From Campylobacteraceae bacterium (GTDB taxonomy: Bacteria; Campylobacterota; Campylobacteria; Campylobacterales; Campylobacteraceae), in contig JAISQB010000049.1 in NCBI GenBank assembly GCA_031274495.1, positions 1 through 34,537 of the forward strand: a stretch of 34,537 nucleotides of DNA, read 5' to 3'. A program made the translations under genes and the position numbers. Below the pieces are notes generated by a model. It saw only the letters and a list, made by a program, of their open reading frames with translations, did not search any database and was not told where the DNA came from. Below, in pieces: positions 13,267 through 24,697 of this stretch; the stretch's first letter is position 1; each line of letters begins with the position of its first letter.

Positions 13267-14259
13267 ATGTTGAAGATCGCTATTGACGCAATGGGCGGGG
13301 ACTTGGGTTTTGCCCCTATCATAGAAGGAACCATCAAGGCTTTGACGGAGAGAGAGGATTTTGAGGCGATATTGGTCGGTAAGACGGACGCTATCAAGCC
13401 GCTTATCTCACCCGCTATGCAAAGCAGAGTGACATTTATAGAAGCGGACGATGTATTTGATATGCACGAATCCGCCACGGATGTTTTAAAGCGCAAAGAG
13501 TCCACGATATATAAAGCCGTGGATTTGGTCAGAGAAGGCAAAGCGGACGCTATCGTCTCAGCCGGACACAGCGGCGCTACGATGAGTTTGGCGACACTTC
13601 GCGTAGGACGCCTTAAAGGTGTATCAAGACCCGCTATCGCCACTTTGATGCCGACCGTACAAAACGGCGTCTCTACGCTTGTTTTGGATGTGGGGGCGAA
13701 TGTGGACTGTAAAGCCGAGCACCTGTTTCAATTCGCCGTAATGGGCGAGTGTTACGCCAAAAATGTGATGGGCATCAAAAAACCCAAAATCGGACTTTTA
13801 TCAAACGGCGAAGAGTCAGGTAAGGGCAACGATGTGACCAAAGAGGCGTATGAGATAATGGCGAAACTAAACGCGTTCGTGGGCAATGTCGAGGGCAACA
13901 ATGTCTTTGACGCTTCCGTTAATGTCGTCGTTTGCGACGGATTTGTCGGCAATATTTTACTAAAAACAAGCGAAGGCATTGCCGAGTCCATCACCAATAT
14001 CATAAAAATGAATGTCAAAAAGTCTCCCTTGGCGATTGCGGGTGCGGCTTTAATGAGAAAAGTCTTCAAGATACTCAAAAAACAGGTAGATTACGCAGAA
14101 TATGGCGGCGCACCTTTGATGGGCGTAAAAAAATGCGTCATCATAAGCCACGGCAAAAGCAACGCTAAAGCCATCAAAAACGCCATATTTCAAGCTCTCA
14201 AATTCGCCGATTCACACGTAACACAAGCCATAGAAGAAGAGATCGCGGCTTTTGAGTAA
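13267..14259 (+). CDS. plsX: Phosphate acyltransferase PlsX
   Basis: PlsX makes acyl-phosphate from acyl-ACP, feeding PlsY in phosphatidic acid synthesis at the inner face of the membrane. The 330-residue product begins [19 protein letters not shown] and contains [50 protein letters not shown] and [13 protein letters not shown] (each quoted within the family's conserved blocks), then [15 protein letters not shown]. Length is normal. It follows rpmF by 9 bases, and its stop overlaps the fabH start by 8 bases. Confidence 0.97.
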
Positions 14260-15241
14260 AGTTTTCGCGTGCTTCAAATCTATCGGCGCTTACGCCCCTA
14301 AAAAAGTTTTGAGCAATGAAGATTTGGAAAAAATGGTCGAAACCACGGACGAGTGGATACTTCAGCGCACCGGCATAAAAGAGCGAAGATTGGCATCCGA
14401 GGATGAACTCACAAGCGACCTAGGACTAAAAGCCGCCAAACTTGCCATCGAAAGAGCGGGCATAAAAACGGATGAGATAGACGCTGTCATCTGCGCTACG
14501 CTTACGCCTGATTTTTTGTGTATGCCGGCGACCGCGTGTCTTATAGCCTCAAAGCTTGGCATCAAAAATGTCTTGGCGTTTGATGTGAGCGCGGCTTGCA
14601 GCGGGTTTGTATATATACTCTATCTCGCAAAATCCCTCATCGAATCGGGACTTCACAAAAATATACTCATCATCGGCGCGGAAAAGCTAAGCTCGGTGGT
14701 GGATTATACCGATAGAGGCACTTGTATACTGTTCGGCGATGGCGGCGGGGCGGCTATCATCGGCACCACTACGGATAAAAACGAAGCCATCGCGGATATA
14801 CAGATAAGCGCGGACGGCGACTATGCGCATCTTTTAGTAGCACCTCGCTCCAGAGTTACGCACCCAAAAGATGACCGAACGCTTGAATATCTACAGATGG
14901 CGGGCAATGAAGTCTTCAAAGTGGCGGTTAAAACGCTCACAAACGATGTCGTGGAAATCTTGCAAAAAAACGGCATAAGCGCCGATGAGATAGACCACTT
15001 CATACCTCATCAGGCAAATCTGCGCATCATAGAAGCTGTGCGCGAAAAGCTCAATTTCTCGCACGAAAAAACAGTCTTAACCGTCCACAAATACGGCAAC
15101 ACATCAGCCGCCTCAATACCTATGGCGATGAATGACGCTTACGAAGAGGGCAGAATTAAACACGGCGATTTGATACTACTCGACACATTCGGCGGCGGCT
15201 TTACATGGGGCAGCGCCCTACTACGCTTCGGCGGCAAATAA
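14252..15241 (+). CDS. fabH: 3-oxoacyl-ACP synthase III (FabH)
   Basis: FabH condenses acetyl-CoA with malonyl-ACP to begin fatty-acid synthesis. The 329-residue thiolase-fold enzyme has the catalytic triad Cys116 (DVSAACSGF), His253 ([10 protein letters not shown]) and Asn283 (KYGNTSAAS). The N-terminus [17 protein letters not shown] and the C-terminal [13 protein letters not shown] are typical. A TTG start at 14252, overlapping plsX by 8 bases, is required to include the first strand; coupling with plsX is likely. The final ~50 bases and following terminator are repeated twice more downstream (see 15192-15615), which is highly unusual. Confidence 0.96.
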
Positions 15242-15413
15242 GTTTTATTTAAAAACCAACGCGAACATCAAAATCTCTTTTTATCATTTCTGATAGCAAA
15301 ATAACGAGGATGGTTTTTACCCGCAAATGTTATCCTGCGGCGGATTCACATGGGGCAGCACCCTATCACTTCGGCAATAAATAGGTTTTAAAACGCCGCA
15401 TAAATATAAAAAT

Positions 15414-15458
15414 CTCTTTTTTGTCGTATCTGATAGCAAAATAAAAAAGAGCTTTTTT
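15414..15458 (+). terminator. Terminator hairpin in repeat unit B
   Basis: CTCTTTTTT (15414-15422) pairs with AAAAAAGAG (15443-15451) and is followed by CTTTTTTG, an intrinsic-terminator shape that also works in reverse. The loop is 20 bases. Confidence 0.6.
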
Positions 15459-15554
15459 GCCTGCAAATGTTATTCCGCGGCGGTTTTACGCAGGATAGCG
15501 CCCTGCTACGCTTCGGCGGCAAATAGATTTTAAACACCGTGCAGCCATAAAAAT

Positions 15555-15598
15555 CTCTTTTTTTCGCTCCTGCAAGCGAAAAAAAGAGTGGCTTTTGC
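15555..15598 (+). terminator. Strong hairpin in repeat unit C
   Basis: CTCTTTTTTTCGCT (15555-15568) and AGCGAAAAAAAGAG (15575-15588) form a perfect 14-bp stem with loop CCTGCA; TGGCTTTTG follows. The loop side differs from unit B, yet pairing is extended, so the structure appears maintained. Confidence 0.65.
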
Positions 15599-15626
15599 CT
15601 GCATGAGTATATTCCTAATTTTTTAT

Positions 15627-15676
15627 CTTGTTGCGCTCGTGTTCTTTGTATTCCCGCATGCACGGGAGTGACGAAA
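15627..15676 (+). repeat. Solo end of the dispersed palindromic element
   Basis: TTGCGCTCG..TTTGTATTCCCGC followed by ATGCACGGGAGTGACG resembles the right end of the elements at 20801-20989 and 23014-23200 (CGCTTCGCTTGTTTTGGATT, then CCCGC..GCGGGAAT). ATTCCCG pairs with CGGGAGT. The rest of the element is absent. The remaining gene-free stretch 15677-15838 shows only AT-rich DNA and a TTAATC-type dyad. Confidence 0.45.
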
Positions 15677-15838
15677 AAAAAGGGTTTGCCGCACCTCTTT
15701 GTAATTAATCCTTTTTTTAATCACACTTTTTATAAAACGGCGGAAAAGAATATATCGCAACCCTCATCCGTCCGCTTTATGCCACTCATCAGCGTTTCAT
15801 ATTTTTCTTGATAAAGCCTATTGGCGTTTCGATTTCAC

Positions 15839-16072
15839 TTACGAGTTATTCTCCAAAAGTATCTTTTCGCACTTTTTTATCTGCTCGTCGACTACTTGGA
15901 TTATCTCCTTTAACTCTTTGGCTTTCTCCTCGTCAGCTTCACTTAGTTCCGATTTTAAGGCGCCCCTTCTTGTGTGTAGCTTATCTATCAAAGAGGAGAG
16001 GTTTTCATTCTCATCTTTTTGAAGCCCCAACATACTCTTAAGCCCCTCTAAAAATCCGCTTTTGTTCTCCAT
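15839..16072 (-). CDS. Small charged coiled-coil protein
   Basis: A 77-residue hydrophilic protein with no recognised family. The N-terminus MENKSGFLEGLKSMLGLQK may be amphipathic. From about residue 25 to 73 it is Leu/Glu/Lys-rich with heptad-like spacing (NLSSLIDKLHTRRGALKSEL, then KAKELKEIIQVVDEQIKKCE), a probable coiled coil. ATG 16072 is preferred because GAAGGAG lies 8 bases before it; a GTG at 16081 overlaps the stop of the upstream transporter gene. Six bases separate the two genes, so it is surely co-transcribed and may bind the transporter's PhoU-like domain. Confidence 0.65.
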   Translation of the reverse strand: MENKSGFLEGLKSMLGLQKDENENLSSLIDKLHTRRGALKSELSEADEEKAKELKEIIQVVDEQIKKCEKILLENNS

Positions 16073-16077
16073 TTTTA

Positions 16078-17859
16078 TCACTCCTTCACCCCGTTATCTA
16101 CTGAAAGCACCGCTTGCATCGTCTCTTTTTGCCCGATATCTTTGTGGATAAAGAGTATCTTCGCAGCATCCGTGAGGGATTTTGAGATGTGCAAAGCGTA
16201 TGCGTTGTCATTCATCAAGGAGCTCCCCATAAGCGGCGATACGCTCCCGGCTTTTAGCAGCGCTCCAAGCGTAAGCGAAGCGTTCTTGTCGAACTTTTCG
16301 CTAAGCATTTCAAGCTGCGCTATCAGCACCACCGTGAGGTCCCCCTCATCACTCTCAAAAACCCTCTCCAATATCCTAAGCTGCGTCAAAAGGTGCTCCC
16401 TTATAGAGTTGTAACCGCTTTTGATGCCGTCGTTGTGGCTTGTCATATATTTGGTCAAATTCTTTTGCAGATGCTTGACATCTTTTAGCGCTTCAACGAT
16501 ACTATGAGCCGCTTTTTGCAACTGCGCCAAATCATTGACGATATCGCCATTATCACTCATACTCTGCGATATGACGATGAAGTTTACTATCTTGCCGTAG
16601 ATGGTCTTTATCTTCTTTTGGTACATCTGCTCATAGTCAAAATCCAGCGCCTTTGAGCGCAGCTTCACCGTCTCCTCCACGCTTCTTTCGGAGTGCAGGT
16701 CGGCGACCTTCACGTGCACGCCAAGAGCCATAATATCCGCGGCGTTTTGATAGAGATGGCAAATCTCCTTTCGCGCCACTTCTCTCATCGCTTTTTCGTG
16801 TGTGATGGAGCTGTTTAGATACAAGACATCATCCCCCGCGTCCGTCTTTTGGCGTATGATTTTTTGCGCGAGTGCGGCGATATTTTCTATGAACGGATAC
16901 AAAAACATAACGCCCAAAGTGTTTATCGTAGTGTGAAACAGCGCCAATTTCAGGGCGTAATTACTCTCGCCGATGCCAAGCACGATAGCTTCGTATTTGA
17001 TGAGTATTATCAACTGATATATAAAAACGATGGACAAAAAGCAGATAAATATATTAAAAGAGAGATATAAAAGTGCGAGCCTCTTGCCCTCTACATTGGA
17101 GCCCAAAGAGCTGATGAGTCCCGTTAGCGTCGTGCCAAGATTTGCCCCTATGATGACGCCCAAAGCGTTCACATAGCTTACCTGTTCCGCGTCTAAGGCG
17201 GCTATGGTGAGCACTATCGTGGCAAGTGAGGATTGCGTGATGATGGCGATGATGATGCCAAGGGCGAAAAACGCAAATACGCCGGGCATACCCTCGATGG
17301 AGTATTGCGCGAGGTTAAAGTCATTCCCCAGCGCCTCAAATCCGTCTTTTATATACGCCACTCCCAAAAACAAAAAGCCGATACCGATAAGAACCTGCCC
17401 CGCACTCTTTAGCGTTTTGGAGGATTGAAGCAAAAATATAACGCCAAATATAATGATAGGCATCGCATATTTGGCGATATCCACTTTAACGCCAAGACCT
17501 GCCACTAACCACGCGCCCGAAGTCGTGCCGATCTGAGCGCCAAACAGTATGCCCGTACCTTGCACAAGGCTGATAAGCCCCGCACTCAAAAATGAGATGC
17601 TAAGAAGGGAGACGAGCGTGGAGGATTGCATAATGGTCGTGGCGGCTATACCGAAGATGATACTTTTGAGTTTTGTGGAGGTCTGGCGGCGCAAAAACAG
17701 CTCCAACGCCCCGCCGCCCGAACTCTTAAAGCCCTCGCCCATCGTCACCATACCGAAGATAAAGATGGCGATACCGGCGCTTAAGAGCAGTATATTTTCG
17801 CTTCTGAAAAAAAGATATGAGAGTACGGACAATCCCGCTATCAAAAAGACTCTTTGCAC
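16078..17859 (-). CDS. Na/Pi-cotransporter family protein with PhoU-like domain
   Basis: A 593-residue inner-membrane protein. The transport half (about 1-335) has two inverted repeats, each with the QSS signature: TTIMQSSTLVSLL (Gln78-Ser80) plus GAQIGTT (107-113), and AIITQSSLATIVL (Gln209-Ser211) plus GANLGTT (238-244). At least eight hydrophobic segments are visible. The C-terminal half (about 350-590) is a helical, charged PhoU-like region. This is the YjbB/NptA-like architecture for sodium-coupled phosphate transport, often proposed as efflux. AAGGACG lies before the ATG. It heads a two-gene operon with the small coiled-coil gene. Phosphate as substrate is family inference. Confidence 0.88.
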   Translation of the reverse strand: MQRVFLIAGLSVLSYLFFRSENILLLSAGIAIFIFGMVTMGEGFKSSGGGALELFLRRQTSTKLKSIIFGIAATTIMQSSTLVSLLSISFLSAGLISLVQGTGILFGAQIGTTSGAWLVAGLGVKVDIAKYAMPIIIFGVIFLLQSSKTLKSAGQVLIGIGFLFLGVAYIKDGFEALGNDFNLAQYSIEGMPGVFAFFALGIIIAIITQSSLATIVLTIAALDAEQVSYVNALGVIIGANLGTTLTGLISSLGSNVEGKRLALLYLSFNIFICFLSIVFIYQLIILIKYEAIVLGIGESNYALKLALFHTTINTLGVMFLYPFIENIAALAQKIIRQKTDAGDDVLYLNSSITHEKAMREVARKEICHLYQNAADIMALGVHVKVADLHSERSVEETVKLRSKALDFDYEQMYQKKIKTIYGKIVNFIVISQSMSDNGDIVNDLAQLQKAAHSIVEALKDVKHLQKNLTKYMTSHNDGIKSGYNSIREHLLTQLRILERVFESDEGDLTVVLIAQLEMLSEKFDKNASLTLGALLKAGSVSPLMGSSLMNDNAYALHISKSLTDAAKILFIHKDIGQKETMQAVLSVDNGVKE

Positions 17860-18000
17860 ATTCGTCCTTCTGGTTTTTCCGTTAGGATATCATATTTTTT
17901 GCCAAATTACGCTTATCTGGGTTTTTGTCGCGGCGGATATTTTTATAAAATTCTATATTAAATCTATAGATATACTATTGTATATTTTAAAAAAATGTGC

Positions 18001-18063
18001 TACAATTACTTTTTTTGTGTGAGGAACAAAAAAATGTCGAAATGCGTTGATAATAGTTATTAA
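18001..18063 (+). other. Possible promoter and 9-codon leader ORF
   Basis: TACAAT (18001-18006) is a plausible -10. It is followed by GAGGAA and an ATG at 18034 that opens a 9-codon frame MSKCVDNSY ending at 18063. It lies 68 bases before the DUF2325 gene and upstream of its Fur box. A leader peptide is possible, but such short frames are common by chance. Confidence 0.22.
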
Positions 18064-18087
18064 AATAAGCTCTTTTTCAGGTTTTTT

Positions 18088-18106
18088 ATTTATAATAATC
18101 ATTATC
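18088..18106 (+). promoter_or_regulatory. Fur box overlapping a -10 element
   Basis: The 19 bases here match 15 of 19 positions of the classical Fur consensus, with the right half AATCATTATC perfect. A TATAAT (18091-18096) lies inside it, 36 bases before the ATG at 18132, so bound Fur would block the promoter. This predicts iron repression of the DUF2325 gene, its unknown neighbour and fldA. Confidence 0.72.
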
Positions 18107-18131
18107 AGAAATTATTACAGAGGGAGTTAGA

Positions 18132-18458
18132 ATGTCCGTACTTGTTATAGGCGCTGATGAGATAAATCCGATCAGGGCAGTGCTGAATGATCTTGGGGCA
18201 GATGAGGTGGTGCATTGGGACGCCAGAAAAAAGAGCAGTGTAAATAGGAAGATTATTCCGCAGAACACTCAGTGTATAGTGATGTTGACAAGTTTTCTTA
18301 ACCACAACACGATGAAGCTCTTCAAATCCGAAGCCAAAAAACGCAATATTCCGGTAGTTTGCGCGAAAAGAAGCGTGAGCTGCGTCTACAGCGAATACTG
18401 CAAAGTGTTCGGGTTGAACAAGGATTATGATTGCGGCGAATGCCAAAAGAGTTTTTAA
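18132..18458 (+). CDS. DUF2325 family protein with Cys-rich C-terminus
   Basis: A 108-residue soluble protein of the DUF2325 family. It has the Rossmann-like start MSVLVIGADEINPIRAVLND, VVHWDARKKSS, the IVMLTSFLNHNTMKLFKSEAK core and the CAKRSVS motif. Cysteines at 77, 84, 90, 101 and 104 crowd the last 32 residues, ending YDCGECQKSF, an arrangement that could bind metal or an iron-sulfur cluster. GAGGGAG lies before the ATG. It is the first gene after a Fur box and is followed, three bases later, by an unknown gene and then fldA. Biochemical role unknown; iron-responsive expression inferred. Confidence 0.8.
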   Translation: MSVLVIGADEINPIRAVLNDLGADEVVHWDARKKSSVNRKIIPQNTQCIVMLTSFLNHNTMKLFKSEAKKRNIPVVCAKRSVSCVYSEYCKVFGLNKDYDCGECQKSF

Positions 18459-18461
18459 CAA

Positions 18462-19193
18462 ATGCTTTTTGGTTTCGAGCGGATAGACGGGAGATGGGTA
18501 GAGAGAGTGCCAACGCTATTTCAATCTTTCTCGCCCAAAGAGCAGCGCGAGTTTTTCATCAACCAATACAACTGTTGCGTCGGCAAAGATGAGCGTGTCG
18601 CTTTTAGGAAGGGTTTTGGCTCTTTAACTCTTTTTGAGATTTTCAAAAGCAAGATACTCTCAAGGCTAAAGGTCAAAAACAGGCTCCGTAAAAACGAGCT
18701 TAAAACGTTTGACCCCTACTCCGCTGTGTTAATCGCGCTTTTTATCAAAGGGGATTATGAGGAGCTAAAAAGGGTGATAGAGGCAAACGCGTTTTTACCC
18801 AAAATCTCTCAGGCGATGTTGATTTTTAGGATATTCTCGTCTGCAAATTGCGGGATAGTATTTGACGCGAAGACTCTTTTTTCGGAGTTTGTGCTGGAGA
18901 AGATTACACGCAAAAACCCCGACAAAGAGGTCTATTTTAAAGATGGCTTGATTGCGGTTGAAAAAGACGGCGAGTGTCTTTTAAATATTATGTTGTGTTT
19001 TAAAAAATTTGACAAGGATAAGATTTATCTCGTCAAAGATGAGATAGATGAGGCTTGGAGAAAGGTCGCAAAGGGCAATATCAGGTCTTTGTATATCGTT
19101 TTTCCTAAAAATAGCGCGTTTAAGCGCCATATAGAGGTGAAAAACCCCTGCTTTACCAACTCTTTGGTGAAGCTTGTTCCATATACCATTTAA
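18462..19193 (+). CDS. Unknown protein in the fldA operon
   Basis: A 243-residue soluble protein I do not recognise by domain. No TM segment or signal peptide is present. It starts MLFGFERIDGRWVERVPTLF, has an Arg/Lys-rich stretch about residues 66-82 (KILSRLKVKNRLRKNELK), and scattered cysteines (Cys38-Cys39, then about 133, 176 and 230). From memory, a similar unlinked-by-function pair of genes precedes fldA in Campylobacter. The start follows the DUF2325 stop by three bases with only a weak AAGAG, so coupling is likely; fldA follows after 14 bases. Iron-limited expression is inferred from the shared Fur box. Function unknown. Confidence 0.68.
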   Translation: MLFGFERIDGRWVERVPTLFQSFSPKEQREFFINQYNCCVGKDERVAFRKGFGSLTLFEIFKSKILSRLKVKNRLRKNELKTFDPYSAVLIALFIKGDYEELKRVIEANAFLPKISQAMLIFRIFSSANCGIVFDAKTLFSEFVLEKITRKNPDKEVYFKDGLIAVEKDGECLLNIMLCFKKFDKDKIYLVKDEIDEAWRKVAKGNIRSLYIVFPKNSAFKRHIEVKNPCFTNSLVKLVPYTI

Positions 19194-19207
19194 ATTAGGA
19201 GATACAA

Positions 19208-19702
19208 ATGTCAATAGCTATAGTTTTCGGAAGCAGCGGCGGCAACACGGAGGGCGTTGCCAAACTTATCAAAAAAGGTCTTGGCAAAGAGGCTGACTTG
19301 ATAGATATCGGCAAGGCTGACGCGAGTAAGATAAACAGTTACGATAAGCTGATTTTGGGTACGTCGACTTGGTATGAGGGCGAACTGCAGGATGATTGGG
19401 ATTCGTTTGATAAAGAGTCGCTTGAGCTTGAAGGCAAAACAGTCGCGCTCTTCGGACTTGGCGACCAAGAGGGTTACGGCGGCGAATTTGCCGACGGCGT
19501 GGGGACTTTATACCACTTGAGCTTGAAAAAAGGCGCTAAGATAGTTGGTGATAAAAACTCTACCGAAGGGTATAATTTTGAAGAGTCAAAAGCGGTAGTA
19601 GACGGCAAATTTGTAGGTCTTATCGTTGATGAAGACAACCAAAGCGACTTGACGGCGGAGAGAGTCGAAAAATGGGTCGAGAGCATAAAATCCGCTTTTT
19701 AA
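19208..19702 (+). CDS. fldA: Flavodoxin (canonical copy)
   Basis: A 164-residue long-chain FMN flavodoxin that carries low-potential electrons, typically for PFOR, in place of ferredoxin when iron is scarce. Phosphate-binding loop GSSGGNT (8-14); the 50s loop GTSTWYEGELQDDW with flavin-stacking Trp55; and the 90s loop LFGLGDQEGYGGEF with Asp86 and stacking Tyr90. All FMN contacts are standard. AGGAG precedes the ATG. As third gene of the Fur-box operon it is probably iron-repressed. A diverged paralogue follows 228 bases downstream. Confidence 0.94.
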   Translation: MSIAIVFGSSGGNTEGVAKLIKKGLGKEADLIDIGKADASKINSYDKLILGTSTWYEGELQDDWDSFDKESLELEGKTVALFGLGDQEGYGGEFADGVGTLYHLSLKKGAKIVGDKNSTEGYNFEESKAVVDGKFVGLIVDEDNQSDLTAERVEKWVESIKSAF

Positions 19703-19719
19703 ATTCATAAATTTAAGGT

Positions 19720-19743
19720 TAGTTTTGCTTCGAAGCAAAACTA
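19720..19743 (+). terminator. 24-bp perfect palindrome after fldA
   Basis: A perfect palindrome centred on TTCGAA (arms TAGTTTTGCTTC and GAAGCAAAACTA) starts 18 bases after the fldA stop; CCTCTTTTG follows. Shape and place fit a terminator, though it could also bind a protein. The TTTTGC..GCAAAA arms recur inside the 185-bp dispersed elements. Confidence 0.55.
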
Positions 19744-19865
19744 CCTCTTTTGCCCATTCTTGATAAAAACCATAAATTTTAAGTGTGTCAAATCCTCCCA
19801 CAACAACCAAATTTAAGAGAAAAATGGTACGAATAGTATGGATTTCTTACCCCCATTTAAAAAAA

Positions 19866-19884
19866 TAGGATAAGATATATCCTA
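19866..19884 (+). promoter_or_regulatory. Dyad operator candidate before the second flavodoxin
   Basis: TAGGATA (19866-19872) and TATCCTA (19878-19884) are exact inverses around a 5-base centre, 46 bases before the ATG. No matching Fur consensus is present, so this copy seems to have a different regulator from fldA. A small hairpin CCGC-N6-GCGG (19887-19900) follows in the leader. Confidence 0.45.
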
Positions 19885-19929
19885 ATCCGCTTCAACGCGG
19901 TTTATCAAAACAAATAACAAGGAGAAAAA

Positions 19930-20427
19930 ATGTCTTTGGCTATAGTTTACGGAAGCACAAAAGGCACGACGGCAAGGGTGGCTGAGCTCATAAAGAGCAG
20001 GTTTGAAGGGGCTGATTTGATAAATATCGCACAAGCTAAACCCGACGAACTAAACAGATACGACGGATTTATTTTCGGCACATCTACTTGGTATGACGGG
20101 GAGTTGCAGGATGATTGGGAAGAGTTCGACAAAAACGCCATCAAAGTCGAAGGCAAACCCGTCGCGCTCTTTGGCATAGGCAACCAAAAAAGACACGGCG
20201 AAACATTTTCCAACGGCATCGGCATTTTGCACGAGCTATTTTCAAAAAACGGCGCGAAAATCATAGGCGACAAAAATCCAACTGACGGATATGTCTTCGA
20301 AAAATCAAAAGCGGTAGTAGACGGCAAATTCGTAGGTCTCATCATCGACCAAGAGTTCCCTGATGATCTTGCAAAAGAGTATGTCGCCAAATGGACAAGC
20401 TCGATAAAAGACAATTTCGCAATATAA
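19930..20427 (+). CDS. Second, diverged flavodoxin
   Basis: A 165-residue flavodoxin paralogue of fldA. The phosphate loop is GSTKGTT (8-14) and Trp54 is kept in GTSTWYDGELQDDW. The 90s loop reads LFGIGNQKRHGETF: the Asp of GxGDQ is Asn85 and the stacking Tyr is replaced by His89. In flavodoxins these residues pack on the isoalloxazine ring and set its redox potentials, so this protein should have shifted potentials. AAGGAG lies before the ATG; a terminator follows at 20438. It has its own upstream region and dyad, so it is expressed apart from fldA. Function as an electron carrier is likely; partner unknown. Confidence 0.9.
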   Translation: MSLAIVYGSTKGTTARVAELIKSRFEGADLINIAQAKPDELNRYDGFIFGTSTWYDGELQDDWEEFDKNAIKVEGKPVALFGIGNQKRHGETFSNGIGILHELFSKNGAKIIGDKNPTDGYVFEKSKAVVDGKFVGLIIDQEFPDDLAKEYVAKWTSSIKDNFAI

Positions 20428-20437
20428 ACGCACAATC

Positions 20438-20472
20438 ATAGGACGGCATTGTAAAATCCCGTCCTATCTTTT
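20438..20472 (+). terminator. Intrinsic terminator of the second flavodoxin gene
   Basis: ATAGGACGG (20438-20446) pairs exactly with CCGTCCTAT (20459-20467), loop 12 bases, followed by CTTTTG and later GTTTTG. It begins 11 bases after the stop. Confidence 0.7.
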
Positions 20473-20498
20473 GTAGTTTTGCAAAAACGGGACAGCTT

Positions 20499-20800
20499 TT
20501 ATAGATAGGTTACGCGTTTATCTATCCAAATATCTTCATCACGCCAAGCGACAATAACATATCCTACTTCGCCATATCACATTATTATGTGAACTGTACG
20601 CTTTTGCGCTCGCATGAACAACAGCAACGCATTTTGCCCCTATCGCTAAATCTCCAAAAACAATATTCTCAAAAACAGCTACCCAATTTTATGCGAAATA
20701 TTCCCTCTTCATCATGCCTTTGGGCTACAAAACAATCCGCGACAATTTTTCACGCTCTTCACTCGTAGCGATGTAAATCGCAAAAATACGAATCCAAACC
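20499..20800 (-). pseudogene. Decayed unidentified reading frame
   Basis: The minus strand reads protein-like segments in shifting frames: VWIRIFAIYIATSEEREKL (about 20800-20740), ENIVFGDLAIGAKCVAVVHA (about 20680-20600), then YGEVGYVIVAWRDEDIWIDK and RVTYL with a stop at 20501-20499. At least two frameshifts and several stops separate them. I cannot name the parent gene. Its upstream end abuts the element at 20801-20989. The call rests only on the protein-like look of the segments. Confidence 0.3.
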
Positions 20801-20989
20801 CTCTTCCATCATTCCCGTGAAAATAAGCGAAGCGTCTCTTTTGTTAAAAGTCGTATTGAATTTATGGATGATTTCCAATCAGATATCTTCTTTGACTTGT
20901 TATGTTTTTTAGTTTCAAGGAAACATTTTGCTGAAGCAAAAACGCTTCGCTTGTTTTGGATTCACGCTTTCACGGGAATGACGGGAGAG
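20801..20989 (+). mobile_element. Copy 1 of a ~185-bp element with terminal inverted repeats
   Basis: The left arm (about 20801-20834: ATTCCCGTGAAA..AAGCGAAGCG) and the right arm (20943-20989: CGCTTCGCTTGTTTT..TTTCACGGGAATGACGGGAG) are inverse, with ~13 extra bases in the right arm. The interior has two small hairpins, GTTTC/GAAAC and TTTTGC/GCAAAA. A run of about 60 bases near 20904-20962 is identical in copy 2 at 23014-23200. There is no coding capacity. This looks like a non-autonomous, MITE- or REP/Correia-like element. Confidence 0.7.
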
Positions 20990-21560
20990 AATGGATTTGC
21001 GCGTTTTGTGCTGTCGTAGTGGGGAAACGACGAAAAATGGGGGGGTTGTTTTTGTGAAAAAACGGTACGAACCGTCTCTTTTGTTTCCTATAATTACACA
21101 TAAAAATCATCAATGTTAAAAAAACAATACATATACAAAACAGATATGCATTAGCCAAGAACGCCTAAAATAGCATTTTTTTAGCTATTTTATTACCTAA
21201 GCTTTATTGTATTGTTTAAAATCATTATGATATAAAATAACCGCACCTTCCCGATAAACTAAAAACAATAGACAAAAAAGTTTGGCTTCGGCGCCCCACT
21301 TTCACATCTGTTTAAAGCCTTAAATGCCCCTTATTTTTGATAAATTCCTTAAAAAGCAGCATTACAAATCGCCTCGCTTTCGCCAATATAAATCCCAGCT
21401 TAAGCAAAATCGTCAAATTTACGATAGATTTATTTAGTCATTAAATACCATTTGTCAAATTATCTTAAAAAATAAAATATCAGTTCTATATACATCGCAA
21501 AACTTTAATTTTACTTTGCTTTAGTTAGTATGGGTGCAGATTATAGGTAAGGAGGCGGGC
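20990..21560. other. AT-rich gene-free stretch with one hairpin
   Basis: No gene is seen. TAAAATAGC (21166-21174) and GCTATTTTA (21184-21192) form a 9-bp hairpin with a T-rich loop, which could terminate transcription in either direction. ATCATTATGAT near 21220 resembles half of a Fur site but is too poor to call. The rest is AT-rich without repeats I could detect. Confidence 0.4.
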
Positions 21561-21923
21561 ATGCTGAAGCTCGCATTGAACGGTTGTAATAGTGTCCATG
21601 TTGGTTTGGGCAACGGCTGCAAACATAGCTGCGCCCTCACTCTCAATGCCTTTTTGCGCGATTTGGCTATGATGGATGCCATATCCAAACAAAACTATTT
21701 TACAAATCGGCAAAAAGGCAGAATGGACGAGAGGATATGTCGCTCTTCTCATATATTTAGCTATCGCCCCAATGGAAGTGTGGACACGAAAAGGTGTAGG
21801 GGTCCATCCCAAAGCTTTCGTGAAAATCCGCCGCGCAAAGCGTCGATTATGAAGATAGGCGGCAGTCCGCCCGCGCATTTCGACCGACAGACAACTCCCC
21901 CATATGCGGGTATCCAAACTTGA
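21561..21923 (+). CDS. Doubtful 120-residue ORF
   Basis: An open frame with a very good AAGGAGG ribosome site five bases before the ATG, in a region otherwise lacking genes. The product, MLKLALNGCNSVHVGLGNG.., has no recognised domain, becomes Arg/Pro-rich, and ends TTPPYAGIQT, which is merely the translation of the palindromic repeat at 21890-21990. An antisense frame (22004-21525) is also open. Either may be chance; the last third is repeat DNA. Treat as unverified. Confidence 0.25.
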   Translation: MLKLALNGCNSVHVGLGNGCKHSCALTLNAFLRDLAMMDAISKQNYFTNRQKGRMDERICRSSHIFSYRPNGSVDTKRCRGPSQSFRENPPRKASIMKIGGSPPAHFDRQTTPPYAGIQT

Positions 21924-21990
21924 ACATACATAGCACTCCGTGTTGTGAGACTCCTTTATTCCCGGATACCCACTTATGGGGGGAATGGTG
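21890..21990. repeat. ~100-bp palindromic repeat element, copy 1
   Basis: Minus-strand GGATACCCGCATATGGGGGA (reading from about 21915) faces plus-strand GGATACCCACTTATGGGGGG (21964-21983), separated by about 45 bases. Each arm is itself a short palindrome of the CCCGC-N-GCGGG type often seen as REP-like repeats. A further CGGGAAT/ATTCCCG pair (21993-21999/22040-22046) follows. Confidence 0.5.
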
Positions 21991-22037
21991 CAACGGGAAT
22001 CCACCCCTCTTCCGTAGCATCATCCCCCATTTTTCCG

Positions 22038-22238
22038 CTATTCCCGAGGACTGGGTCTCCGAAAAAAAGTGAAAGCTATTTTTTGGAGCAAGTCATACGG
22101 GAGTTCAAATCGCCTTAACAAAACATTTCCCACGCGAAGCGCTTTCGCCTCGGCACGACATTTTATCAACAACAATATCTCATCAAAAGTTTTCAAAACA
22201 CGACAAGCAATGATCTGTCCCTTGTCGTATTCATGCAT
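22038..22238 (-). CDS. Doubtful 66-residue ORF
   Basis: A minus-strand frame, MHEYDKGQIIACRVLKTFDE.., with TAGGAG five bases before its ATG. The product is Leu/Lys/Arg-rich, looks helical, and has no signal peptide or known domain. The ribosome-site bases belong to the palindromic repeat at 22239-22333, and the gene lies among pseudogenes and repeats. It could be a small real gene, a remnant, or chance. Confidence 0.3.
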   Translation of the reverse strand: MHEYDKGQIIACRVLKTFDEILLLIKCRAEAKALRVGNVLLRRFELPYDLLQKIAFTFFRRPSPRE

Positions 22239-22333
22239 ACAACTCCTACATAGGCGGCTATCCGAAGCGTCAAATATCTTTGAATAAAATTTTATATTTC
22301 CCTTGGATATCCGTCTATGGCGGAGAGCGCGCA
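22239..22333. repeat. ~95-bp palindromic repeat element, copy 2
   Basis: Minus-strand GGATAGCCGCCTATGTAGGA (from about 22263) faces plus-strand GGATATCCGTCTATGGCGGA (22305-22324) across about 40 AT-rich bases. It has the same head-to-head layout as the copy at 21890-21990, including the shared GGAGTTGT beside one arm. Confidence 0.5.
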
Positions 22334-22343
22334 AGGAGTACCC

Positions 22344-23017
22344 ATGCCAAAGCTATTAACATTCTTAGCTAAAGTCCTATTCACCATCTCATCTCATTTT
22401 TCTTCTTAGCAGGTTGCGGTGAATGGGAAGGAGACGATGTCTATGTTGTCACATTTGAGGGCAGTGTTGTACATGAGTTAGAAGTTCCCATTGGAGAACC
22501 ATTAATTATTCCGCCCCCTCCTTTCAAACAAGACCATACCTTTATGAGTTGATTGGAGGTAGACAGTATCGTGATGATAGCTGCGGGAGTTACCTCATAT
22601 ACTCCTACAAGAGATATGAGCTTTAAAGCATTGTTTGTTCTAAATAGTGCCTCTATATATGGTCATATTTCTTGATTATGATGATAGTGCGATAAAGTCT
22701 CTTAATGTAACCTCGGGCTCTTCCATACCGTTACCTCCAACTCCCCCAAAGGAAAGATTACACCTTTATAGGCCGGCTTGATGCAGGTAGTATCGGTATG
22801 ATACCCAATGGTACATCTGTCTTTACTCCAAGTGACCATATAGTCTTTAAAGCTATCTTTCTTGATGAGAGCGACAATATCATACGAGAGTTTAATGTCA
22901 CTAAGGGTAAATCATTGATTGTTCCTATAGCAACTGTCAAATAAGATTACACTTTTATGGGTTGGGTAGAGGTGAACGGTACTAAGATGATAACAAAAGA
23001 TGTAATTGTACAATTCC
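22344..23017 (+). pseudogene. Decayed lipoprotein with InlB/Flg_new-type repeats
   Basis: AAGGAG precedes ATG 22344, and MPKLLTFLAKVLFTI is a signal start. After a frameshift comes a lipobox, FFLAGCGEWEGDD. Three related ~70-residue repeats then follow in changing frames: HELEVPIGEPLIIPPPP..HTFM, NVTSGSSIPLPP..DYTFIG, and NVTKGKSLIVPIA..DYTFMGWVEVNG. The DYTFxGW and xxFKAxF spacing is that of bacterial InlB B-repeat/Flg_new domains of surface proteins. Damage: at least three frameshifts, a Trp-to-TGA stop near 22550 and a TAA near 22942. The reading ends DVIVQF at the left arm of the element at 23014, so the 3' part is lost. Once probably a surface lipoprotein. Confidence 0.75.
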
Positions 23018-23200
23018 AGCGCGGGCGGGAATCCAAACTAAGCAAAGCGTTCTTTTTGTCAAAAACCGTATGAATTTATGGATGATTTCAAATCCGATAT
23101 TTTCCTCAATTTGTTGTGTTTTTTAGTTTCAAGGAAACATTTTGCTGAAGCAAAAACGCTTCGCTTGTTTTGGATTCCCGCTTTAGCGGGAATAGCGAAG
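23014..23200 (+). mobile_element. Copy 2 of the ~185-bp terminal-inverted-repeat element
   Basis: Left arm 23014-23049 (GGGCGGGAATCCAAAC..AGCAAAGCG) is inverse to the right arm 23157-23193 (CGCTTCGCTTGTTTTGGATT then CCCGC..GCGGGAAT). The interior aligns with copy 1 from GAATTTATGGATGATTT through the identical ~60 bases containing GTTTCAAGGAAAC and TTTTGCTGAAGCAAAA. It begins where the lipoprotein pseudogene stops, which suggests insertion into that gene or deletion next to it. Confidence 0.72.
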
Positions 23201-23237
23201 AAGGGAGGCGTGTCTTGGGATTGTACAGCAATTCGTG

Positions 23238-23284
23238 AGAATCCTAACGGTTGAGCCCATAAGATAGGCAACCGTTAAGATTCT
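23238..23284. repeat. Long hairpin between the element and the efflux operon
   Basis: AGAATC (23238-23243) with GATTCT (23279-23284), and TAACGGTTG (23245-23253) with CAACCGTTA (23269-23277), form a 16-bp stem with one C-A mismatch and a 15-base loop. It starts 40 bases after the end of the outer-membrane-factor gene (minus). No U-tract, so a terminator role is uncertain. Confidence 0.6.
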
Positions 23285-23323
23285 TCGTCGCTTTGCTCCA
23301 TCAGAATATGGATGGGGAACAAC

Positions 23324-24697
23324 CTACTTAGCACTCCAGCCGCCGCCCAAGACTTTGTAGAGGGTGACTAAGGCGTTTAGGTGGTTTAGTCTTTGCGTTG
23401 CTAATGAATCGCGGGATGAGAAGTATTTGTTTTGCGCGTCCAAAAGCGTGGTTAAGTCTGTGGAGCCGTGTCTGTACTGTATGCTTGCGATATCTAAAGA
23501 GCGTAGGGACTCTTGTGCGATTTGCTCTTGTAAGGTTTCTTGCGAATCTTGATGAGCGACATTTAACAGCGCGTCATCACTCTCTTGCAGAGCCGTCAAG
23601 ATGGCCTTATTGTAGCTTTGTACCGCCGCTTTTGTCTTTGAAATCTCTATTTCGGTCAAATCTTTCAGTCGCCCTCCGTCAAAAAGCGTAAATGCCGCGT
23701 TGAGTGCCAAAGAGAGCAGTGATGTGGGGTCTTTAAACGATAAGAGCGTGTCGCTTGAGAATCCGCCGCTGCCGCTTAAGGAAAAGCTTGGAAATCTATC
23801 CGCGTTTGTCGATCTGACCGCCGCGTTTGAAGCGTCTAAGTTCGCACGGGCACGGGCGATGTCTGGTCTATTTAAGAGCAGTTCCGAGGGTAAGCCCGCT
23901 TCGACTTTTGGAATATTCAAATCCCAAAAAGAGTCCAGTATCGCCTCAAATCCTTGAGGAGCGCTACCCGTCAAAACTGCCAGAGCGTTTTTTGCTTGCG
24001 CTACTTGAAGCTTGAGCGAGTCCACGCTGGCTTGTTGCGACAGAAGCGACGATTTTTGGCGGCTCACATCCAAAAGGCTCACGCTGCCGCTTTTGTATTT
24101 TGCGTCTACTATCTGCATAAGTTGGGAGCTTATATTGAGGTTGTCTTGGGCGATTTTGAGCCTCTCGTTTGTGCTAAGAAAGCTAAAATAGCTCTGCGCC
24201 ACAGAGGCGTACAAAGAGAGAATTACCGCGTCCGCGTCGTATTTGGTCGCGTCAAACCTTGCTTGCGCTTGGTCGTTGTTTGCCGCTATCTTGCCCCACA
24301 AATCTATCTCGTAGCTTATTCTTAGTGTTCCGCTCGTTGATTTAGAGGTGCGTGCAATGCCGTTGTAGGGCTCATTTCTGCTCTCGCTTGTGCCCGCGCT
24401 CACGGAAGCTTGCGGCAGATACGCATCTTCACTGATACCAAGCTGTAAGCGCGCTTGGACTATATTTTCGTAAGCTATAAGCACATCGGGGTTATGGCTA
24501 AGCGCCTTTTGTATAAGCTGATTCAAGGTCGGCGAATTAAAATTTTTCCACCATACGCTTGATATATTGCTACTGTTTGATGTCGCAAGGCTAAATTTTG
24601 GCGGCGCTTCAAAATCGCTTTTGAGCGCGTCGGGGTGTATAAAAGAGCACCCGCCAAGAAAAACCGCAAACACTACCGATAATAATACATACCTCAT
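23324..24697 (-). CDS. NodT/OprM-family outer-membrane efflux lipoprotein
   Basis: A 457-residue TolC-type outer-membrane channel of the NodT subfamily. A lipoprotein signal ends VFLGGC (acylated Cys17). Two repeated helical halves follow (about 60-255 and 275-457), with family blocks WWKNFNSPTLNQLIQKALSH (about 49-68), ISYEIDLWGKIAANNDQA (about 127-144), LLNRPDIARARANLDA and NAAFTLFDGGRLKD. It is the last gene of the macA-macB operon, starting two bases after the macB stop, and should form the outer-membrane exit of the tripartite pump. Having the channel in the operon, rather than using a shared TolC, suggests a dedicated pump. Confidence 0.93.
   Translation of the reverse strand: MRYVLLSVVFAVFLGGCSFIHPDALKSDFEAPPKFSLATSNSSNISSVWWKNFNSPTLNQLIQKALSHNPDVLIAYENIVQARLQLGISEDAYLPQASVSAGTSESRNEPYNGIARTSKSTSGTLRISYEIDLWGKIAANNDQAQARFDATKYDADAVILSLYASVAQSYFSFLSTNERLKIAQDNLNISSQLMQIVDAKYKSGSVSLLDVSRQKSSLLSQQASVDSLKLQVAQAKNALAVLTGSAPQGFEAILDSFWDLNIPKVEAGLPSELLLNRPDIARARANLDASNAAVRSTNADRFPSFSLSGSGGFSSDTLLSFKDPTSLLSLALNAAFTLFDGGRLKDLTEIEISKTKAAVQSYNKAILTALQESDDALLNVAHQDSQETLQEQIAQESLRSLDIASIQYRHGSTDLTTLLDAQNKYFSSRDSLATQRLNHLNALVTLYKVLGGGWSAK

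Follow-up and report, generated by a model that had tools for sequence, protein, structure and literature searches.

Two copies of a repeat of about 185 bp lie in a 34,537-nt stretch of DNA from a Campylobacteraceae bacterium (contig JAISQB010000049.1 of assembly GCA_031274495.1, positions 1 to 34,537 of the forward strand; hereafter the window). Both are almost certainly mosaics, comparable to the Neisserial intergenic mosaic elements (NIMEs) and bacterial interspersed mosaic elements (BIMEs), in which two repetitive extragenic palindromes (REPs) of the CGTC-1 type stand head to head around a spacer (module A) with a small inserted module (B). There is equally little doubt that B is a distinct structured repeat family; it apparently has not been described before and is the new part of the find. 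The account as a whole, a REP dimer mosaic carrying B as a nested, non-autonomous module that is recognised by its structure and lands at REP loops, is considered probable; confidence is high for the anatomy and the range of B, moderate for its insertion and low for the enzyme.

Anatomy of the repeats and identity of their ends

Copy 1 (20801-20989) and copy 2 (23013-23200) align over 143 nt at 86% identity (20837-20979 with 23051-23193) and have inverted ends of 22 nt at 91% (20801-20822/20968-20989) and of 42 nt at 79% (23013-23054/23152-23193), respectively. The related copies with inverted ends proposed by an earlier sequence-only reading of the window are therefore real, and the roughly 60 identical interior bases that it mentioned were found to be a 61-bp block (20903-20963 = 23117-23177). 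Copy 1 opens on the + strand with a left palindrome of the CGTC-1 type of which only the tag-side half is left (CATC ATTCCCGTGAAAA; 20801-20823, from the inverted repeat), followed on the same strand by spacer module A (20824-20915), delimited by repeat comparison as a repeat of the own genome, and by module B (20916-20957), a three-helix structured unit with a TTTT end that rests on covariation and on a score of 67.0 bits with the covariance model R1 described below; it closes with a right CGTC-1-type REP (GGATTCACGCTTTCACGGGAATGACGG; 20958-20984, from the inverted repeat) whose CGTC tag lies on the - strand. Copy 2 consists of a left CGTC-1-type REP without its tag (23013-23034, + strand, inverted repeat), spacer A (23035-23129, + strand, repeat comparison), a B of the same sequence as in copy 1 (23130-23171, + strand, again 67.0 bits and in the identical block) and a right REP on the - strand, ATTCCCGCTTTAGCGGGAAT (23172-23198), which the palindrome search gave as one of the 58 exact copies of the genome, with an altered tag, so that the CGTC tag of copy 2 is gone at both sides. 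A solo end had also been placed at 15627-15676; a palindrome is present there, as a single, degenerate REP of the CGTC-1 type (GTATTCCCGCATGCACGGGAGTGACG) that by inspection covers only about 15648-15673 on the - strand.

The genome of the window (G000; 1.81 Mb in 97 contigs, 99% complete) was searched for the further copies that the same reading had called for: with copy 1 as query, BLAST returned 77 matches (best E 1.9e-101), well beyond what chance would give, and matches were obtained in 9 of the 14 genomes of the genus. All arrays in the own-genome loci were printed, and they consist of separate pieces in varying combinations: the palindrome CGTCATTCCCGC(4)GCGGGAATCCAAA, a second palindrome CGTCATTGCGGGCTTGACCCGCAATCT, spacer A of about 97 bp, B of 41 bp in one to three tandem copies, and a longer module D that has its 3' end in common with A. 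The inner lengths of complete palindrome pairs with the tag outside reflect this composition, with 96-98 for A, 138-139 for A with one B (one such case, L024, has A in part only), 176 for A with two B, and 132-134 and 173-174 where the second palindrome is additionally present; pairs with inner lengths of 70 and 377 match no module combination. Spacer A appears to be confined to this genome, as the loci examined in relatives gave no convincing match (best E 0.13). Another own-genome module, GAGGGTACCCCGTAGGGGCAGTGTCAACTTT..GGTTACTTTCTTTT..AAAGAAAGTAAC, has B at TTTCTTT^GGTTAC in nine loci (L002, L004, L017, L024, L058, L060, L061, L063 and L064) and is without B in L009.

The end palindrome is 20 bp long, ATTCCC(N8)GGGAAT, with an 8-bp stem and a 4-nt loop, and its array consensus CGTCATTCCCGC....GCGGGAATCCAAA carries a CGTC tag on one side and a CCA-like tail on the other, unlike the window copies, in which the tag is altered or lost. 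Tag-outside (head-head) pairs make up 16 of the 27 close neighbours in own-genome loci, a share biased by the choice of these loci by similarity, and the palindromes are interleaved with other modules in intergenic arrays, as dRS3 palindromes are in NIMEs. Instead of the GTAG tag of REPs mobilised by REP-associated tyrosine transposases (RAYTs), the palindrome bears CGTC, and B bears no tag. CGTC-1 REPs as described in 2013 by Di Nocera et al. (PMC3733652) have a CGTC tag, an 8-bp stem opening with AT (here ATTCCCGC/GCGGGAAT), a 4-nt loop and a CCA-like tail, occur mainly as head-head dimers with the tag outside and conserved spacers, and have no dedicated transposase; the dRS3 pattern of Neisseria (PMC3898611) is likewise ATTCCC(N8)GGGAAT, and its Nf1 subtype is matched here. 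The ends and their arrangement are thus of a known kind. What differs is the host, as Campylobacter is not mentioned in PMC3733652 and the present repeats are from Campylobacteraceae, together with the own-genome-only spacer and the position of B at a junction or in a loop.

Exact ATTCCCG..CGGGAAT palindromes number 58 in the own genome (none for the reversed control), 47 of them with GC-N4-GC, and ATTCCCGCN4GCGGGAAT is present in 8 of the 14 genus genomes (0 to 220 copies) and, outside the genus, as a single copy in each of 3 of 139 family genomes. In a plasmid collection, a 30-nt palindrome probe matched 21 records, of which two from N. gonorrhoeae have at least 40 places each, with a best match of 29/29 nt (core plus flanks). 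The sole phage record matched, MW495066.1 (Microcystis phage MaAM05), has 12 places resembling the CGTC-1 palindrome, and a viral collection gave the palindrome in 9 stretches on 5 contigs. One of its records, IMGVR_UViG_3300028837_003179 (42 kb; L130, L131, L135, L136 and L138), holds at least 11 exact CGTC-1 palindromes with flanks and may be a bacterial contig wrongly assigned as viral.

Fold, range and sites of module B

Module B measures 37-45 nt, typically 41 nt, with the layout NNNN-GAAACA-[apical stem]-NC-[NN-TTC-NN]-TTGTTTT, in which an outer stem GAAACA/TTGTTT surrounds two hairpins, one apical and variable, the other small (NN-TTC-NN), and is followed by the TTTT end. The apical stems are widely divergent with pairing mostly retained. 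Covariation was counted on an alignment fitted to the structure of the model, and shuffled and slid controls are quoted for that reason. In 15 ungapped units 96.7% of the cells are paired and 19 double-change cells are seen against 7.5 after shuffling; in 97 distinct units the values are 94.8% and 98 against 23.6 (0/500), and sliding the partner leaves at most 10. In the small hairpin, where NN-TTC-NN covaries better at one pair than the register first chosen by the model, that pair reads C-G 103, A-T 11, G-C 2 and T-A 2 times in 127 distinct units from across the order (120 paired, wobble included, against a shuffled mean of 95.9 and maximum of 104), while the other pair (-14/-8) shows no covariation in the same units (106/127 against 105.4). 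In the outer stem, the pair that varies reads C-G 108, T-A 9 and T-G 9 times, with 126 of 127 paired and a shuffled maximum of 122. The structural case rests on this covariation, since the folding energy of single units is ordinary (z -0.95 and -0.76). The covariance models of Rfam 15 gave no match up to E 1 in window positions 15000-24000 or up to E 0.5 in six loci rich in B. Within the open-licence literature of PubMed Central (PMC), a sequence-word search found the end motif in no paper, and none of the titles listed pointed to this repeat or to an account of it in Campylobacter. CsrA sites, integron attC sites and IS91-type targets, considered as identities of B, were set aside because the corresponding bases are not conserved.

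A covariance model built from B (R1) was searched in 153 family genomes and an even sample of 398 genomes of the order. B was found in 27 of the 153 family genomes, 8 in the genus of the window and 4, 9 and 6 in three other genera, with 51 copies in the own genome, 46 in G023, 36 in G008 and 16 in Campylobacter majalis (G063). The order sample gave B in 34 of 398 genomes from 18 of 88 genera and 10 families, several of them represented by one match close to the cut-off. Units from other families are of the same kind when read by eye, and 95.6 kb of other DNA used as a control gave nothing below E 0.27. A strict sequence pattern of B had hit only the own genome in the order sample (1/398) and was discarded as too narrow. 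Among named records, matches to a relative of B are from Campylobacteraceae metagenome genomes and C. majalis. B and the REPs are independent of each other, as genome G012 combines 220 palindromes with 4 B and C. majalis has 16 B but no such palindrome. Neither the A-B core nor two B arrays had a match in the plasmid collection, nor B patterns in the viral contigs. Five contigs of G023 (L175, L176, L179, L181 and L193) end within a B array that counts three units or more; the arrays of this genome are therefore probably longer than assembled.

In the window copies B stands at the junction of spacer and REP, AGTTT^GGATTCCC. Flanks were compiled for 118 distinct hits, 84 of which are array starts, and TTT lies within six bases 5' of GAAA at 78 of the 84 array left ends, against a background of 0.197. 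With G008 and G023 added, and arrays with a flank shorter than 25 nt or with duplicate flanks dropped, 127 distinct arrays were classified by sequence pattern: 16 are inside the loop of a GGAT..ATGAC REP palindrome (52 of 20254 control T-run ends, or 0.26%), 41 are at TTT^GGAT (189 of 20254, or 0.93%) and 65 belong to neither class; the loop cases L033 and L040 escaped this count. The palindromes that host B differ in their stems (ATTCCC, ATACCC, ATATCC and ATTGCC types), and the same set of loci has 20 intact T-loop palindromes. Genome G370, which belongs to another family, has one intact CGTCATCCTGAACTTGATTCAGGATCT, as against 7 retrieved copies with B at the same position of the REP loop, and the composite of B and REP seems to have been copied onward there. 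A different repeat, found in related genera, has B at one T-run or at another, and each of the two is empty where the other is filled (L152 and L153 against L157). Very likely, then, B was inserted into pre-existing sites. The repeat in L152, L153, L155, L156 and L157 is a larger one that extends from GGCGAAGTATTTTGAGATG to CTCAAAAGACAAGCC and carries B at one or the other of its terminal T-runs.

Of 140 arrays placed relative to genes, 34 overlap with an open frame of 90 aa or more, in nearly every case one of 90-154 aa and in two cases a longer one, and 30 are too near an end; the remaining 76 lie between co-directional (41), convergent (30) or divergent (5) genes. Most are thus downstream of genes, the same intergenic distribution as that reported for REPs in PMC3733652.

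Routes of spread

Four explanations compete with the proposed one. That the 185-bp unit is an ordinary miniature inverted-repeat transposable element (MITE), moved by the DDE transposase of an insertion sequence (IS) with the same ends, is very improbable: its inverted ends are conserved and even extend outward (CTCTCC..GGAGAG) and its copies are dispersed and mostly intergenic, but units differ by whole modules, and the end palindrome is also found alone and with other spacers in relatives. Moreover, the target duplications that the sequence-only reading had asked for did not appear at 15 complete dimers, whose flanks have direct repeats no longer (mean 2.2) than re-paired flanks (2.03; 69 of 300 re-pairings reach the observed value), which argues for a REP dimer mosaic and against a classical MITE. 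The undescribed MITE- or REP-like family of that reading is accordingly REP-like; a MITE is not supported, the unit being assembled from modules that also occur apart, and its ends had been described (PMC3733652 and PMC3898611). Two transposase families were sought, PF01797 and PF02371, and the own genome has the inverted ends and no member of either. Movement of B, and of the REPs, in trans by a Y1 transposase (IS200/IS605 or RAYT) acting on single-stranded DNA is a more plausible idea, though still improbable. B has subterminal hairpins, lacks conserved terminal inverted repeats, has a short fixed target in the T-run and carries a guide-like GAAA paired with its TTTT end, features that resemble IS200/IS605 ends. 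However, Y1_Tnp (PF01797) was found in none of the 14 genus genomes and IS110 (PF02371) in one; being near-absent from the genomes searched, IS110 (genus) and Y1 (genus and family) transposases were not supported as movers, so that the mover has either not been found or is extinct, or the spread occurred by recombination among repeats. CGTC REPs are also reported to lack an associated transposase (PMC3733652). The suggested mobilisation in trans gains no backing for the dimer; for B it is matched by paralogous sites, some filled and others empty, but the search for an enzyme gave no candidate.

The two other explanations are both unlikely, to about the same degree. In one of them B would be a functional structured RNA, maintained by selection and spread by duplication, and its placement in REP loops would be incidental. 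The strong compensatory changes across the order and the scarcity of arrays between divergent genes agree with this, as they do with the earlier proposal that the stacked hairpins could act as RNA, but B shows no orientation bias relative to co-directional genes (24 same, 17 opposite), its sites vary between species, it forms tandem head-to-tail arrays and it strongly prefers REP contexts. In the other, no transposition would have occurred: mosaics of B and REP would have spread by homologous recombination or gene conversion, and the apical stems would be kept by template-switch correction of quasi-palindromes. Such correction can yield covariation without selection, and the covariation of B is for this reason evidence for structure and not, by itself, for function. 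The 61-bp identical block, next to a spacer that differs between the window copies, fits gene conversion; on the other hand, B is present in palindromes whose stems differ and in an unlike repeat of other genera, with no common flank for recombination, and covariation extends to the outer and second helices.

Several observations weigh against insertion of B as a module that lands at REP loops. The empty sites are paralogous repeat copies, hence gene conversion or recombination among repeats could have produced them, and orthologous ones were not obtained: the flavodoxin gene beside copy 1 is present in 13 of 14 genus genomes, none of which can be aligned at the DNA level (too distant). The TTTT at most sites is equally compatible with a target duplication and with the own end of the element, the two being indistinguishable, and the many TTT^GGAT cases arose in part by co-amplification and are not independent. 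A stem-score test around B sites gave no clear excess (7/118 at a score of at least 6 against 4.9%, and 4/118 at a score of at least 8 against 0.85%), most sites being beside and not within the palindrome; the count by sequence pattern, in which the excess at REP loops and edges is seen, replaced it. In G370 there is no T-run at the left flank of B, and the orientation of B to the REP, constant in the genus, is the opposite there. Y1_Tnp is missing from 26 of the 27 B-positive family genomes, the exception being broken Y1 pieces in G090, and movement of B was not observed.

The account preferred here as the most economical one, with B nested in a REP dimer mosaic, would work as follows. B, as a non-autonomous module, would be recognised in its folded and probably single-stranded form and would insert on the 3' side of T-runs that are exposed within palindromes or next to them; its own TTTT end would allow it to insert again behind itself, giving head-to-tail arrays, and it may sometimes be copied onward together with its carrier REP. 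The pattern of insertion is observed, and from it we infer the mechanism. Guidance of this insertion by structure on single-stranded DNA, by an enzyme yet to be found, is put forward tentatively, the architecture of B being like that of elements moved by single-strand transposition.

Comparable systems, neighbouring genes and significance

In the NIMEs of Neisseria, dRS3 palindromes alternate with other repeat modules in intergenic arrays; the intervening modules found here are A, B and D. By way of difference, B has a conserved three-helix fold and lies within the palindrome loop in some copies, and the IS110-type recombinase was not found in 13 of 14 genus genomes. Pneumococcal BOX elements are modular repeats with a short unit in variable tandem copy number. 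The same holds for a MITE of P. gingivalis (PMC4596501). Both occur in other organisms, whereas B is also found without other modules and across the order. The P. gingivalis element is known as BrickBuilt. Miniature elements derived from IS200/IS605 and REP doublets forming hairpins (REPINs) are small, bear hairpins, have a fixed short target and are head-to-tail or dimeric; B differs in that its genus is without Y1 and that it consists of two hairpins in an outer stem and not of a REP hairpin. Insertion inside REP palindromes is also known for IS1397, ISPsy8 and IS621, which, according to PMC1525189, are full ISs with a transposase, while B has about 41 nt, a non-coding size, and no conserved terminal inverted repeats.

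Next to copy 2 ends a broken coding region (22345-23012) with a lipoprotein-like start and repeated segments over several frames; the claim that copy 2 starts exactly where a lipoprotein pseudogene stops could be checked in part, and one frame of the broken region continues into the element. Two neighbouring flavodoxin genes (19208-20427) encode proteins that are 57-58% identical, the first being kept at 84-90% in genus loci and the second being more divergent and adjacent in only some genomes. The 3' end of a fabH-like gene (14252-15241) recurs downstream (15187-15563) in degenerate tandem copies about 140 bp apart, one reading CGGFTWGSTL.., and each is then followed by an AAAATCTCTTTTTT-like tract.

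The paper on CGTC REPs (PMC3733652) left the question of how they spread without a dedicated transposase. The present analysis adds a further repeat, distinct in its fold, that uses CGTC palindromes as insertion sites. It is a speculative and somewhat doubtful possibility that B is an exceptionally small mobile module, of about 41 nt and three helices, lacking terminal inverted repeats and a Y1 transposase, that targets single-stranded T-rich palindrome loops throughout the order by means of an enzyme yet to be named and travels on whenever its palindrome is copied. With the family-wide covariance model and the lists of occupied and unoccupied sites, the question can be tested in genomes whose copy numbers range from 0 to about 50.

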